Source of the DNA: a virus
Direction: 5' to 3' (one strand)
IMG/VR virus record: IMGVR_UViG_3300033149_001443
Location: 1 to 45,476 of that record
Length of the DNA: 45,476 nt
The first letter of the stretch is position 1; each line of letters begins with the position of its first letter. The notes beneath the pieces are model-generated. The model saw only the letters and a program-made list of their open reading frames with translations. It did not search any database and was not told the origin of the DNA. The position numbers and the translations under genes were made by a program. Shown here piece after piece: positions 1,800 through 45,256 of the stretch.

Positions 1800-1834
1800 A
1801 AAAGTATAAACCAAAACGAAAGAAGGAAGGCAAC

Positions 1835-4561: not shown

Positions 4562-4596
4562 AAACGATTTGTAAAAACGATTTATTAAAGTATATT
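4562..4596 (+). promoter_or_regulatory. Early promoter P5 (AAACGATTTG family)
   Basis: AAACGATTTG 4562-4571, -35 TTTGTA 4568-4573, spacer 17, -10 TATATT 4591-4596, then GTAAGTATAA. Directly downstream of the terminator at 4508-4543, so it starts a new unit with the single gene at 4633. Confidence 0.7.
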
Positions 4597-4632
4597 GTAA
4601 GTATAACAAGAAACGAAAGAAGGAAACGGAAA

Positions 4633-9059: not shown

Positions 9060-9113
9060 GAATTATAAGCAAAACGAACCACTAAACAAAAACCGAAAGA
9101 AGGAAAACACAAA

Positions 9114-11392: not shown

Positions 11393-11485
11393 GGCACTCT
11401 TTGCGATCTAAAACACAAGATTCCTTCTTTCGTGATATAAACAGATACGGGCAAACTGTCGGTTCAAGTCCGGCGAGTGTCACCA
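11393..11485 (+). tRNA. tRNA-like element, isotype undetermined
   Basis: The 3' half is convincing: T-stem GTCGG/CCGGC around loop TTCAAGT, acceptor GAGTGTC, discriminator A and encoded CCA. The 5' acceptor GGCACTC pairs fully with it (one G-U pair). The central 58 bases are too long for an ordinary tRNA and do not fold canonically: the D-loop lacks GG. A hairpin AAGA-TTCCT-TCTT flanked by CAC/GTG replaces a clear anticodon arm. It may be a class II or degenerate tRNA, or a tRNA mimic. It separates the SSB gene from the Cas4-like gene. Confidence 0.45.
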
Positions 11486-37144: not shown

Positions 37145-37636
37145 CTAAAACTCTTGTTTCGTTATATCCCATTTTTGCCCGTATGTTATTTCACCTTTTG
37201 TATCAACTACTGCAAAAGGTTTTGCAAGTAAAAGCTTTTCCCAACTCTTTTTGAATTTAGAAGTTCCTTTATAGAAAAGTACCTTGTTTTTATCATCAAC
37301 TTCCTGCCAAATTACCAAAACTCTATAAAGTTTTTCATCGGAGTTGGCCCTATCGGTCATAGTCGGGTGCACCTCATCCGTATCGCTGAGCCAAGGTTGT
37401 GTGCCATACCAAACTTTTCGAATCCTATACACCTTGTGCCGCTTCTCTTTACTAAGAATCGCAACGTAAACTTTGAAAGGCCCTTCTAATCCGTCCCGCT
37501 TGTTTGTTCTGAATTTGGCCGAAATCGTGATGTAAACGCTGTTGTTTTTCCGACTCTTCTTTACCTTATCTTCAAGGCGATCAATTGCCCACACATTAGG
37601 GAGTGCGATTAGGAAAAATATGATGAATTTACACAT
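37145..37636 (-). CDS. Exported protein of unknown function
   Basis: 163 aa from ATG 37636 (MCKFIIFFLIALPNVWAIDR), chosen because AAAGGAG lies eight bases upstream. The first about 18 residues form a signal peptide with an AxA-like end (NVWA). The mature part is basic and strand-rich (VYITISAKFRTNKRDGLEG, KVYVAILSKEKRHKVYRIRK). An exported phage protein could act in superinfection exclusion, the cell envelope or lysis; none can be chosen. Coupled to the ParB-like gene by an eight-base overlap. Confidence 0.65.
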   Translation of the reverse strand: MCKFIIFFLIALPNVWAIDRLEDKVKKSRKNNSVYITISAKFRTNKRDGLEGPFKVYVAILSKEKRHKVYRIRKVWYGTQPWLSDTDEVHPTMTDRANSDEKLYRVLVIWQEVDDKNKVLFYKGTSKFKKSWEKLLLAKPFAVVDTKGEITYGQKWDITKQEF

Positions 37637-38024
37637 TGTCGGCTCCTTTTGTTTCAGGTTCCAGATACTTCTCAAATCGGTAGGCTTTTATGTGGGTTTC
37701 TCCGGCTAAAATAGCGCTGCAAACCCTATGCCAACCGTCCATAATGAATCCATCCCATCCCATGATTATAGGAATAGAATGATTGGATTTACTAATTCTA
37801 ACAGAATGTTCAAGAAAATCATCAATTGAGCATATTTTGCCGTCACTCCAAGGTAAACAGCAAATATTCAAATGACGCAAACAAACCCTTTCAACTTTCA
37901 ATTTTTGAAGTTTGACCTGCTTATACAAATATTCAGCGGACCACTCATTTCCGTCCTGATCACGGAAACAACTTTCTTCAAATGAAGTTGAACCATTTTG
38001 ATAAATTTCAAGTAATGATTTCAT
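37629..38024 (-). CDS. ParB/Srx-like domain protein
   Basis: 131 aa. The C-terminal half carries the ParB-nuclease/sulfiredoxin core: IPIIMGWDGFIMDGWHRVCSAILAGETHIKAYRF, where DGWHR matches the DGxHR signature of the fold. In phages such domains may be nucleases, CTP-binding DNA proteins or enzymes acting on small molecules. There is no ParA or parS site nearby, so partitioning is unlikely. It lies between the tRNA-like array and the exported protein. Confidence 0.7.
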   Translation of the reverse strand: MKSLLEIYQNGSTSFEESCFRDQDGNEWSAEYLYKQVKLQKLKVERVCLRHLNICCLPWSDGKICSIDDFLEHSVRISKSNHSIPIIMGWDGFIMDGWHRVCSAILAGETHIKAYRFEKYLEPETKGADNV

Positions 38025-38111
38025 TGACTACGTGGTCGGGATTCGAACCCAACTTGCGGTATGGTTCCGCATTGACCTGTATTCCTAATACGGACGGCCC
38101 CATTCACGCAG
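38025..38111 (-). tRNA. tRNA-like element A, isotype undetermined
   Basis: T-arm TTGGG-TTCGAAT-CCCGA and acceptor CCACGTA are clear at the low-coordinate end. A 5' strand TGCGTGA/CTGCGTG pairs with it in at least six of seven positions. Between them are a loop with TTAGGAATA (either a GG-containing D-loop or an anticodon-like loop) and a perfect hairpin TGCGG-AACCATA-CCGCA. If the latter is the anticodon arm it lacks U33; if it is a variable arm, the gene is class II with a collapsed D-arm. CCA is not encoded. Confidence 0.4.
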
Positions 38112-38136
38112 CTTGCACTATTGAATTTAGCGAGGC

Positions 38137-38349
38137 TCACCCTCGCACGATTATAACGAATCGTGACGGATACCAGGCCTCTCGGTGGGCCATAGCGAAT
38201 TGGTTAACGGCTTCTTCGTTTGCGGACAATTGACAGGCCGTGCAAACCTGTCGCCTTCTTTTTTCGGGCTGAATGCCTCTTTTGCCAAGCGAAACATGTT
38301 CAAGCAAGGCGAGACAGATCATGACCAAAATTGTGAATAAGATAATCAT
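38137..38349 (-). CDS. Possible small membrane protein (70 aa)
   Basis: ATG 38349 (MIILFTILVMICLALLEHVS) gives one N-terminal membrane span followed by a basic Cys-containing part (KRRRQVCTACQLSANEEAV). The start codon directly follows the CCA of tRNA-like element B and no ribosome site is visible, so expression is doubtful. The hydrophobic start and the absence of alternatives here are the only support. Confidence 0.35.
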   Translation of the reverse strand: MIILFTILVMICLALLEHVSLGKRGIQPEKRRRQVCTACQLSANEEAVNQFAMAHREAWYPSRFVIIVRG

Positions 38350-38407
38350 TGGGGCGAGATAGAGGGATTGAACCTCCGGCACGTCTGCCTGCTATCCAAG
38401 CTCTCGC
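38350..38407 (-). tRNA. Truncated tRNA-like element B
   Basis: Only 58 bases including CCA. Acceptor GCGAGAG / ATCTCGC (six pairs), discriminator C and encoded CCA, T-arm GGAGG-TTCAATC-CCTCT. The D region is reduced to GC-TTGGATA-GC. Where an anticodon arm should be there is a four-pair hairpin GGCA-GACG-TGCC with a four-base loop, which could not decode. It starts five bases after the CCA of the next element, like a true tandem tRNA array. Confidence 0.4.
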
Positions 38408-38412
38408 AAATT

Positions 38413-38514
38413 TGGAACCGGCGGAAGGATTCGAACCTTCACCTCCCTTCTTATCGTCGATTTGACTAGTATTCCACGATTCAGGGCGACTTATCCAAAT
38501 TTGTCCACACCAGT
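38413..38514 (-). tRNA. tRNA-like element C with enlarged anticodon arm
   Basis: Acceptor ACTGGTG / CGCCGGT pairs in all seven positions (two G-U), with encoded CCA. D-arm GAC-AAATTTGGATAA-GTC, variable AGGT and T-arm GAAGG-TTCGAAT-CCTTC are all standard. The stem CCCT/AGGG sits where the anticodon stem belongs, but 34 bases instead of nine lie inside it and form an inner helix ATCGT/ACGAT. No U33-anticodon loop is apparent. Either about 25 bases are inserted or spliced out, or this is a tRNA mimic. Confidence 0.45.
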
Positions 38515-38607
38515 AAATTGCCCGTACTTTCCGGGCTGTCATGCTGTTTATTATCGTGTCGGTCAATGACACGGCCCTGCTATTATAGCGCCAGCACAAG
38601 GCAATCT
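38515..38607 (-). ncRNA. Cloverleaf-like element between tRNA-like elements
   Basis: An eight-pair closing stem AGATTGCC / GGCAATTT holds three hairpins: TGCT/AGCA; GTGTC-ATTGACC-GACAC, a five-pair stem with a seven-base loop that has U at position 33 and could read UGA as anticodon; and GCCCG-GAAAGTA-CGGGC in the T-arm position. It abuts element C with no spacer. The T-loop is not the usual TTCRA, so ordinary tRNA searches could miss it. Confidence 0.35.
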
Positions 38608-38611
38608 GACT

Positions 38612-38784
38612 TAGTGCGAGAGGCAGGATTCGAACCTGCAACTCAAGTTCAAAGTAGTTCGGGGTGTCTTATACCTCGTGCGACATGCTTGCTTATATCG
38701 CATCCACACCTATTCCGAAATAGTCAGCTACGTCCATACTTCTACTTTTTACCTTGCGACCTATCCTAATTAGACCACTCTCAC
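38612..38784 (-). tRNA. tRNA-like element D with ~100-base insertion in the anticodon arm
   Basis: Acceptor GTGAGAG / CTCTCGC pairs fully (one G-U). The D-loop AATTAGGATA contains GG, the variable loop is AGTT and the T-arm is GCAGG-TTCGAAT-CCTGC. The short anticodon stem CAAG/CTTG encloses 103 bases plus one flanking base on each side. Inside are an extension helix AAAGTAG/CTACTTT and further hairpins (CTATT-TCGG-AATAG; GGTGT/ACACC enclosing TGCGA/TCGCA). CCA is not encoded (CTA). It may be an intron-bearing tRNA or a tmRNA-style tRNA mimic. Confidence 0.45.
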
Positions 38785-38848: not shown

Positions 38849-39478
38849 TTACTTGACGCGGTAAATGCGTGCGCCATTAGCTTCTGGACGACTCTTGAAA
38901 TGTCGCTCCTTGATCATGGCCGGAATTTTAACGCCACCTCGCATTTTGGTTGCACCCTCGGGGCAAGGCTCAGACCAACGCCGGGTCGCACTTGCACAGG
39001 TTGACGGCATTGTTTTTGCGGGATCGGGCATCTTTTCAGTCGGAGCGACGAAGAAAGACGGAACGGTATTTTCAATGACTTTCCCGGCTTCGTCAAACTG
39101 AGGGTCAGGCATTTCGTCAAAGGGGTACTTAGACGGTCCGCGACCGCTTCGCTTGATCTTCGGCATGGGAACGCCTGTTTCGATAGGGTAGGGTGCGTTT
39201 ACTTCTGGGACTTCAGCGGATTCTTCAACAGGTGCTTCAACCGCTTCAGCAACATTATCACCACCTGACAAAGCAACAACGCCCACATCAGTGATGCGCA
39301 TAGCAGTTTTCACTTTAGTCCCGACACCTTCTGTCACTGTGGCGTTAATCTCAATGAAACCCTGTTCTTTCAGAGTTTCGACAACCTTTCCAATGCCGAA
39401 CATACCAAAGCCTTTTTCGCTTTTGGTTGCTTCCGCAATCTTTTCAAGCATTTTCTTTTCGTTCGTGCTCAGTTCCAT
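38849..39478 (-). CDS. Hypothetical protein (209 aa) with helical N-terminus
   Basis: MELSTNEKKMLEKIAEATKS, then GMFGIGKVVETLKEQGFIEINATVTEGVGTKVKTAMRITDVGVVAL, which looks like a winged-helix domain (helices followed by a beta wing). Then come an acidic Val/Pro/Glu linker, basic KIKRSGRGPSKYPFDEMPD and a C-terminal part ending ARIYRVK. A DNA-binding regulator is plausible. It has its own promoter at 39535-39563 and a terminator after it, so it is expressed alone. Confidence 0.65.
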   Translation of the reverse strand: MELSTNEKKMLEKIAEATKSEKGFGMFGIGKVVETLKEQGFIEINATVTEGVGTKVKTAMRITDVGVVALSGGDNVAEAVEAPVEESAEVPEVNAPYPIETGVPMPKIKRSGRGPSKYPFDEMPDPQFDEAGKVIENTVPSFFVAPTEKMPDPAKTMPSTCASATRRWSEPCPEGATKMRGGVKIPAMIKERHFKSRPEANGARIYRVK

Positions 39479-45209: not shown

Positions 45210-45256
45210 CTTCTTTTTCCTTCCTTCGTTTTAGTTAATCACTTGATCTATTACTT

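Follow-up and report, generated by a model that had tools for sequence, protein, structure and literature searches.

Phage tRNA-like elements in which the acceptor stem and T-arm are kept and the anticodon arm is replaced or dropped

The transfer-messenger RNA (tmRNA) combines a tRNA-like domain of acceptor, D-loop and T-arm with a long insert, and it has no anticodon arm. In mitochondrial transcripts tRNAs serve as punctuation, and tRNA processing frees the messages. The tRNA-Other of Bacillus cereus is a single cellular element that sits inside longer transcripts. Scaffolds engineered from tRNA for RNA production carry foreign RNA where the anticodon arm would be (PMC3753655). Phage T4 encodes RNA C, which is described as a late RNA validated by Northern blot (PMC9697503) and whose role is unknown (PMC3014915).

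We found that RNA C has a perfect T-arm at its 3′ end and that about 100 nt replaces its D and anticodon arms. Judging from the sequence, its 5′ end appears to form one side of an acceptor-like stem that includes two U-U mismatches; an internal acceptor of 7/7 pairs was rejected in favor of this terminal stem after relatives were aligned. In Erwinia, Enterobacter and Proteus phages the terminal stem changes from CGA/UCG to CGG/CCG, which is compensatory. RNA C matches 721 phage records and is mostly unannotated there. Two homologues are annotated as ordinary tRNAs, namely as tRNA-Met in L333 114-208 (PQ824230) and as tRNA-Lys in L335 119-212 (OQ599310); labels beginning with L or G are our own.

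The window analyzed here is an IMG/VR virus record taken over its whole length of 45,476 bases. Its terminase is 68% identical to the terminases of Erwinia phage AH03 and Paracoccus phage R3, and its polymerase is 58% identical to those of PSV3-type and phage 73-type Pseudomonas phages. An earlier note, made by reading the letters, had described a row of five tRNA-like elements on the minus strand (A, B, C, X and D), four of which keep the tRNA elbow and lack a regular decoding loop. This observation is confirmed, and it was understated: the note missed a fifth such element, E6, which lies apart from the array, in the intergenic space that separates the genes for a single-strand DNA-binding protein and a Cas4-type exonuclease (Table 1).

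Table 1. Positions of the elements and of the features discussed with them (window coordinates unless an accession is given).
Feature	Position	Strand	Description
Element D	38612..38784	-	Acceptor GTGAGAG/CTCTCGC, 7/7 pairs; D-arm; T-arm; A73-CTA
Element C	38413..38514	-	Acceptor ACTGGTG/CGCCGGT, 7/7 pairs; D-arm; T-arm; T73-CCA
Element B	38350..38407	-	58-nt mini form; acceptor GCGAGAG/ATCTCGC, 6/7 pairs; T-arm; CCCA
Element A	38025..38111	-	Acceptor CTGCGTG/CACGTAG, 7/7 pairs; T-arm; 3′ end T-CAA
Element E6	11393..11485	+	Acceptor GGCACTC/GAGTGTC, 7/7 pairs; T-arm GTCGG-TTCAAGT-CCGGC, 5/5 pairs; then ACCA
ORF70	38137..38349	-	Fits exactly between B and A; ATG directly after CCCA of B
ORF131 (phrog_17560)	37629..38024	-	ATG 3 nt after acceptor of A
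DUF7303 gene	38849..39478	-	Upstream of array
E6 antisense segment TTCCTTCTTTCGT	11421..11433	+	Largely unpaired in predicted fold
Shine-Dalgarno leader ACGAAAGAAGGAA, gene start 1835	1816..1828	+	13/13 complementary to E6
Shine-Dalgarno leader ACGAAAGAAGGAA, gene start 4633	4613..4625	+	13/13 complementary to E6
Leader CCGAAAGAAGGAA, DUF7173 gene start 9114	9093..9105	+	12/13 complementary to E6
Leader ACGAAGGAAGGAA, ORF start 45209	45217..45229	-	13 complementary to E6 with one G-U
Repeated early module, copies	1355-1389, 1794-1828, 4591-4625, 9085-9106		
T4 RNA C (species 1 RNA, rnaC)	NC_000866 70908-71046		139 nt; stable RNA; T4 tRNA cluster

Most of the tRNA features that the note had listed for D, C, B and A were found as described. 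All four have acceptor stems and T-stems of 5/5 pairs, the T-loop being TTCGAAT in three and TTCAATC in one, both of the form TTCRANY, and all four (4/4) have GG in the D-loop region; CCA is encoded in B and C. The absence of a regular anticodon arm was also borne out, and none of the five elements (0/5) combines an anticodon stem of 5 bp with a loop of 7 nt that contains U33. In D, a roughly 115-nt insert-bearing arm (38640-38756), with about 100 extra nt, replaces the anticodon arm, and C is longer by about 25 nt at the same position. The middle of B is only a 4-bp tetraloop hairpin, GGCA-GACG-TGCC (38378-38389). Element A has a 5-bp anticodon-like stem whose 7-nt loop, AACCATA, lacks U33, and a hairpin, GTATT-AGG-AATAC, inside its D-loop. 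The D-arm is absent from E6, where the middle is 58 nt. D and C have a common D-arm, TGG.C.AATT.GGATA.GTCGC, and a common 4-bp stem at the anticodon position that is followed by a G-A mismatch, beyond which their sequences are wholly different.

A descriptor that demands an acceptor of at least 6/7 pairs, a T-stem of 5/5, a TTCRA loop and GG/CC beside the loop matches the window 5 times, against a mean of 0.035 and a maximum of 1 in 200 dinucleotide-preserving shuffles. Taken singly, the elements fold unremarkably when compared with shuffles (z of −0.8 for C, −1.6 for B, −2.6 for A, −1.2 for E6 and −1.3 for D). ARAGORN called 0 tRNAs and 0 tmRNAs in the window, and Rfam at the gathering threshold gave 0 matches. 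With permissive filters Rfam recognized only C, as RF00005 at 36.0 bits (gathering threshold 29) with 36 nt inserted in the anticodon arm, and no family besides tRNA matched the window, intron families included. Normal cloverleafs in another register, the result named in the note as speaking against its observation, were not called. Element X (38521-38613), which the note had read as a cloverleaf, did not hold up as a tRNA: a T-loop is missing, the putative acceptor runs into another hairpin, and the fold is not better than those of shuffled sequences (z −0.8).

When these elements are set beside the described systems, the likeness is one of plan. Like the window elements, T4 RNA C has a T-arm and a terminal acceptor-like stem around a long insert, but its terminal stem contains the two mismatches and it has no recognizable D-arm; no sequence kinship between RNA C and the window elements was found, and the likeness is of layout only. 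The tmRNA (RF00023) also shares a tRNA-like domain with a long insert and without an anticodon arm. However, the window elements are several and short in one genome, and neither a tmRNA match (ARAGORN -m and Rfam) nor a tag reading frame was found in the window, so that a tmRNA identity was rejected. Unlike tRNA-Other, they form a phage array with replaced anticodon arms. B and A, as tRNA-like units directly before start codons, resemble mitochondrial tRNA punctuation, but they are non-decoding and are the only two elements so placed. The engineered scaffolds use the anticodon arm in a like manner but are man-made, whereas the window elements are natural.

In Erwinia phage AH03 a normal tRNA-Ser(GCT) lies no more than 10 nt behind the homologue of the DUF7303 gene (30% identity), and the array therefore occupies a tRNA slot. 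tRNAs over the cut-off were found in 4 of 50 related virus records. The whole A-D cluster had no DNA match in the phage collection, and no relatives carrying A-D or E6 themselves were found, so there is no covariation to be read within these very elements. Near the array no promoter-like site turned up, and the scan did not call a terminator-like hairpin that is visible by eye before D. In one relative (G013) a lone degenerate tRNA-like unit lies between early-operon genes, at L118 4627-4705 (IMGVR_UViG_3300035034_000366); this 79-nt unit has a 7/7 acceptor, a collapsed D-arm and an over-long anticodon arm with CTCAAAT in its loop. Other candidates were rejected: a D-arm pattern built from C and D matched only coding-sequence coincidences; a long-insert match in G040 is an ordinary phage tmRNA; a match in G034 is the 3′ half of a tRNA-Pro beside an integrase-like gene, probably an attachment site; and matches in G011 overlap coding frames at a chance-level number. 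Terminase-related phages also hold a permuted tmRNA gene (L075 4564-4936) and, by eye, an ordinary-looking one (L109, about 1600-1900).

To place the elements among virus sequences more widely, IMG/VR was scanned with T-arm patterns from C and D. For the T-arm of D plus CTC, 107 distinct sites were judged, of which 67 lie in tRNAs called by ARAGORN, 1 is truncated at the end of its contig and the remaining 39 are uncalled. An acceptor of 7/7 pairs (at least 6 of them Watson-Crick) lies within 260 nt in 32 of the 39 uncalled sites, against 3.1 expected, although a few of the 32 are near-normal in spacing and may be missed ordinary tRNAs (e.g. L193, tRNA-Ser). Many of the uncalled sites have a tRNA-Leu D-arm, TGGCGGAATTGGTAGACGC, with 50-190 nt replacing the anticodon and variable arms. 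A gapped tRNA-Leu pattern, GTGGYGRAAYTGGNAGACGC N{58,88} TGCAGGTTCGAATCCTGC, which is too long for any normal anticodon domain, was found in 35 IMG/VR contigs. Among bacterial and archaeal genomes, which together amounted to 257 Gb, it matched only 5 stretches; because the collections are of unequal size and redundancy, the contrast is strong but inexact.

Among the gapped-pattern matches 32 elements are distinct, and roughly 28 of these are viral. Although the pattern fixes only 5′ position 7 of the acceptor and leaves the rest free, the acceptor pairs 7/7 in 30 of the 32, against 1.2 for shuffled partners (maximum 6, 500 trials), and when the register is slid only 0 or 1 of the 32 pair 7/7. 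D-loop hairpins like that of element A occur in three members (L240, L254 and L220), and one contig (L309) has two elements. D and C clearly have the layout of this class, with B as a mini form and A and E6 as variants. A link by descent between the window elements and the Leu-type class is tentative: in D-arm scoring the best match is tRNA-Leu for C and tRNA-Arg for D, with small margins, and both D-arms are weakly Leu-like. No description of such a class was found in the literature searched, which excluded subscription papers and preprints, and priority is not established.

Inserts of some class members are themselves conserved. Those of L301 (identical to L306), L293 and L330, the last a human-gut phage contig, have a common core, TTRAGAG....ATGYTAAA with TAAGTCC or a close form of it. 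Around this core two helices were drawn by eye, with no covariation-tool score attached: in the order L301, L293 and L330 the first is GTCTCA/TGAGAT, ACTTGGT/ACCAAGT and GTTGCC/GGCAAT, and the second is AAGG/CCTT, TAGTGT/ACACTA and GCAGG/CTTGC. Similarly, GGCAG/CTGCC in the insert of L326 becomes GGCCG/CGGCC in that of L327. The changes inside both sets of inserts are compensatory, which suggests that class inserts can be conserved structured RNAs. L326 4166-4290 (-) and L327 2445-2579 (+) are homologous class members in Chlorobiaceae and Desulfobulbus assemblies.

Taken together, the acceptor and T-arm (mostly with the D-loop GG too) are kept and the anticodon arm is replaced or dropped in five elements here and in dozens in other phages. 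With a probability of roughly 0.55, we read the window elements as non-decoding small RNAs that are built on a tRNA chassis, mature through tRNA enzymes and carry regulatory or processing payloads. The kept half would allow host tRNA enzymes to mature and stabilize the RNA, the 5′ end being made by RNase P and the 3′ end by RNase Z or by exonucleases with the CCA-adding enzyme, while the replaced part would be the payload. This agrees with the tRNA mimics proposed in the note, a proposal that is supported by the kept acceptor and T-arm, the missing decoding arm and the same plan in a virus-enriched class.

Two uses of such RNAs appear most likely in the window phage. The first concerns E6, whose candidate antisense segment is complementary to the leaders listed in Table 1; matches of 12 nt to three leaders arose in 0 of 1000 shuffles of the E6 payload. 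On the strand opposite the segment no gene-length frame was seen behind it by eye. E6 would be made with the early operon and, via UUCCUUCUUUCGU, would bind the Shine-Dalgarno leaders of three or more early genes and reduce their translation. Copies of an early promoter and leader module, TATATT..AAGTATAA..ACGAAAGAAGGAA, stand ahead of several early genes. The payloads of D, C, A, B and X showed no antisense to gene leaders beyond chance. In the wider class antisense to the available flanking DNA shows no enrichment, and on these flanks it was rejected as a general class property.

The second use would act in cis at B and A. The two genes behind these elements have among the poorest Shine-Dalgarno sequences of the phage, ORF70 ranking 55th of 55 genes (the weakest) and ORF131 52nd of 55; no relatives of ORF70 were found. 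Cuts by tRNA 3′-processing would free leaderless or nearly leaderless messages for both, starting at the AUG or 2-3 nt before it, and the released messages would be those of the two genes without a Shine-Dalgarno sequence. Such junctions were likewise rejected as a general class property, an ORF lying within 10 nt in only 2 of 32 class elements.

A broader reading is more tentative. Phages may commonly encode natural tRNA-scaffolded RNAs, with a conserved, mostly tRNA-Leu-derived chassis that lacks the anticodon arm, interchangeable structured or antisense payloads and maturation by host tRNA enzymes; T4 RNA C would be one case, and E6 would repress early genes via their common leader.

The note had also offered a decaying array, in which ordinary phage tRNA genes lost their anticodon arms and retain no role. 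The tRNA slot shared with AH03 fits such a history, as do the imperfect acceptor of B, the lack of a proper CCA in D and the occurrence of broken tRNA-like units in phages (e.g. L155 and L158). Decay is nevertheless unlikely, because 59 of 60 acceptor and T-stem pairs survive over the five elements despite a wholly replaced middle, and because this selective retention recurs in dozens of other phages, where some inserts are conserved RNAs and one subfamily has a conserved structured insert. Neutral loss would not be expected to replace whole arms and yet spare these pairs.

Slightly less probable still is that the elements are decoys, which would soak up a host factor or defense enzyme that reads acceptor and elbow rather than the anticodon, or would compete for synthetases such as LeuRS. 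The virus enrichment of the class is consistent with this, and A73 is present in 23 of 32 class elements; LeuRS does not read the anticodon. Phage tRNAs are moreover known to counter tRNA-targeting defenses (PMC10264068, PMC13096335). However, a decoy could do without an insert that is long, diverse or conserved, the known anticodon nucleases depend on the anticodon arm, and C and A in the window lack A73.

We regard intron-containing tRNAs that become normal once spliced, another suggestion of the note, as improbable. In intron mode ARAGORN does fit D to tRNA-Phe(aaa), with 90 nt as the insert, and once its threshold is lowered it also accepts C, with an insert of 25 nt, and the 4-bp stem at the anticodon position is kept in both, but removal of the insert leaves no U33 in either and B is too small for an anticodon arm. 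Typical self-splicing introns are longer than the inserts seen here, and no Rfam intron family matched. In the wider class an anticodon-stem partner is present in 11 of 32 elements against 8.9 expected, and class members are therefore not normal tRNAs with introns. Chance resemblance, or fragments of host tRNA genes at integration sites such as the tRNA 3′ half next to an integrase in one contig of the wider set (L139), is the least probable reading and is already contradicted by the rarity of matches in shuffles (0.035 per genome) and by the complete acceptors of the window elements, which lie between genes.

These results suggest that non-decoding tRNA-like RNAs are common in phages and largely unnamed. 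If our preferred reading of them as chassis-borne small RNAs is correct, a virus-enriched RNA class has escaped notice because tRNA finders require an anticodon arm, and about 30% of virus sites with one particular T-arm sequence would belong to it. T4 RNA C, unexplained for decades, would gain layout counterparts with which to be compared, and the phages would hold a natural version of the tRNA-scaffold trick of RNA biotechnology. Directly testable targets would be the leaders complementary to E6 and, behind B and A, the two genes that lack a Shine-Dalgarno sequence.

Finally, two further kinds of unit were seen in virus contigs. Units of about 54-66 nt with 7/7 acceptors and a small middle hairpin like that of B occur in L224 (about 10867, -) and L177 (about 9543, -). 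Initiator-tRNA-like units with a CAT loop and a degenerate anticodon stem lie at L162 5821 (-) and L164 380 (-) and are conserved between these two contigs.
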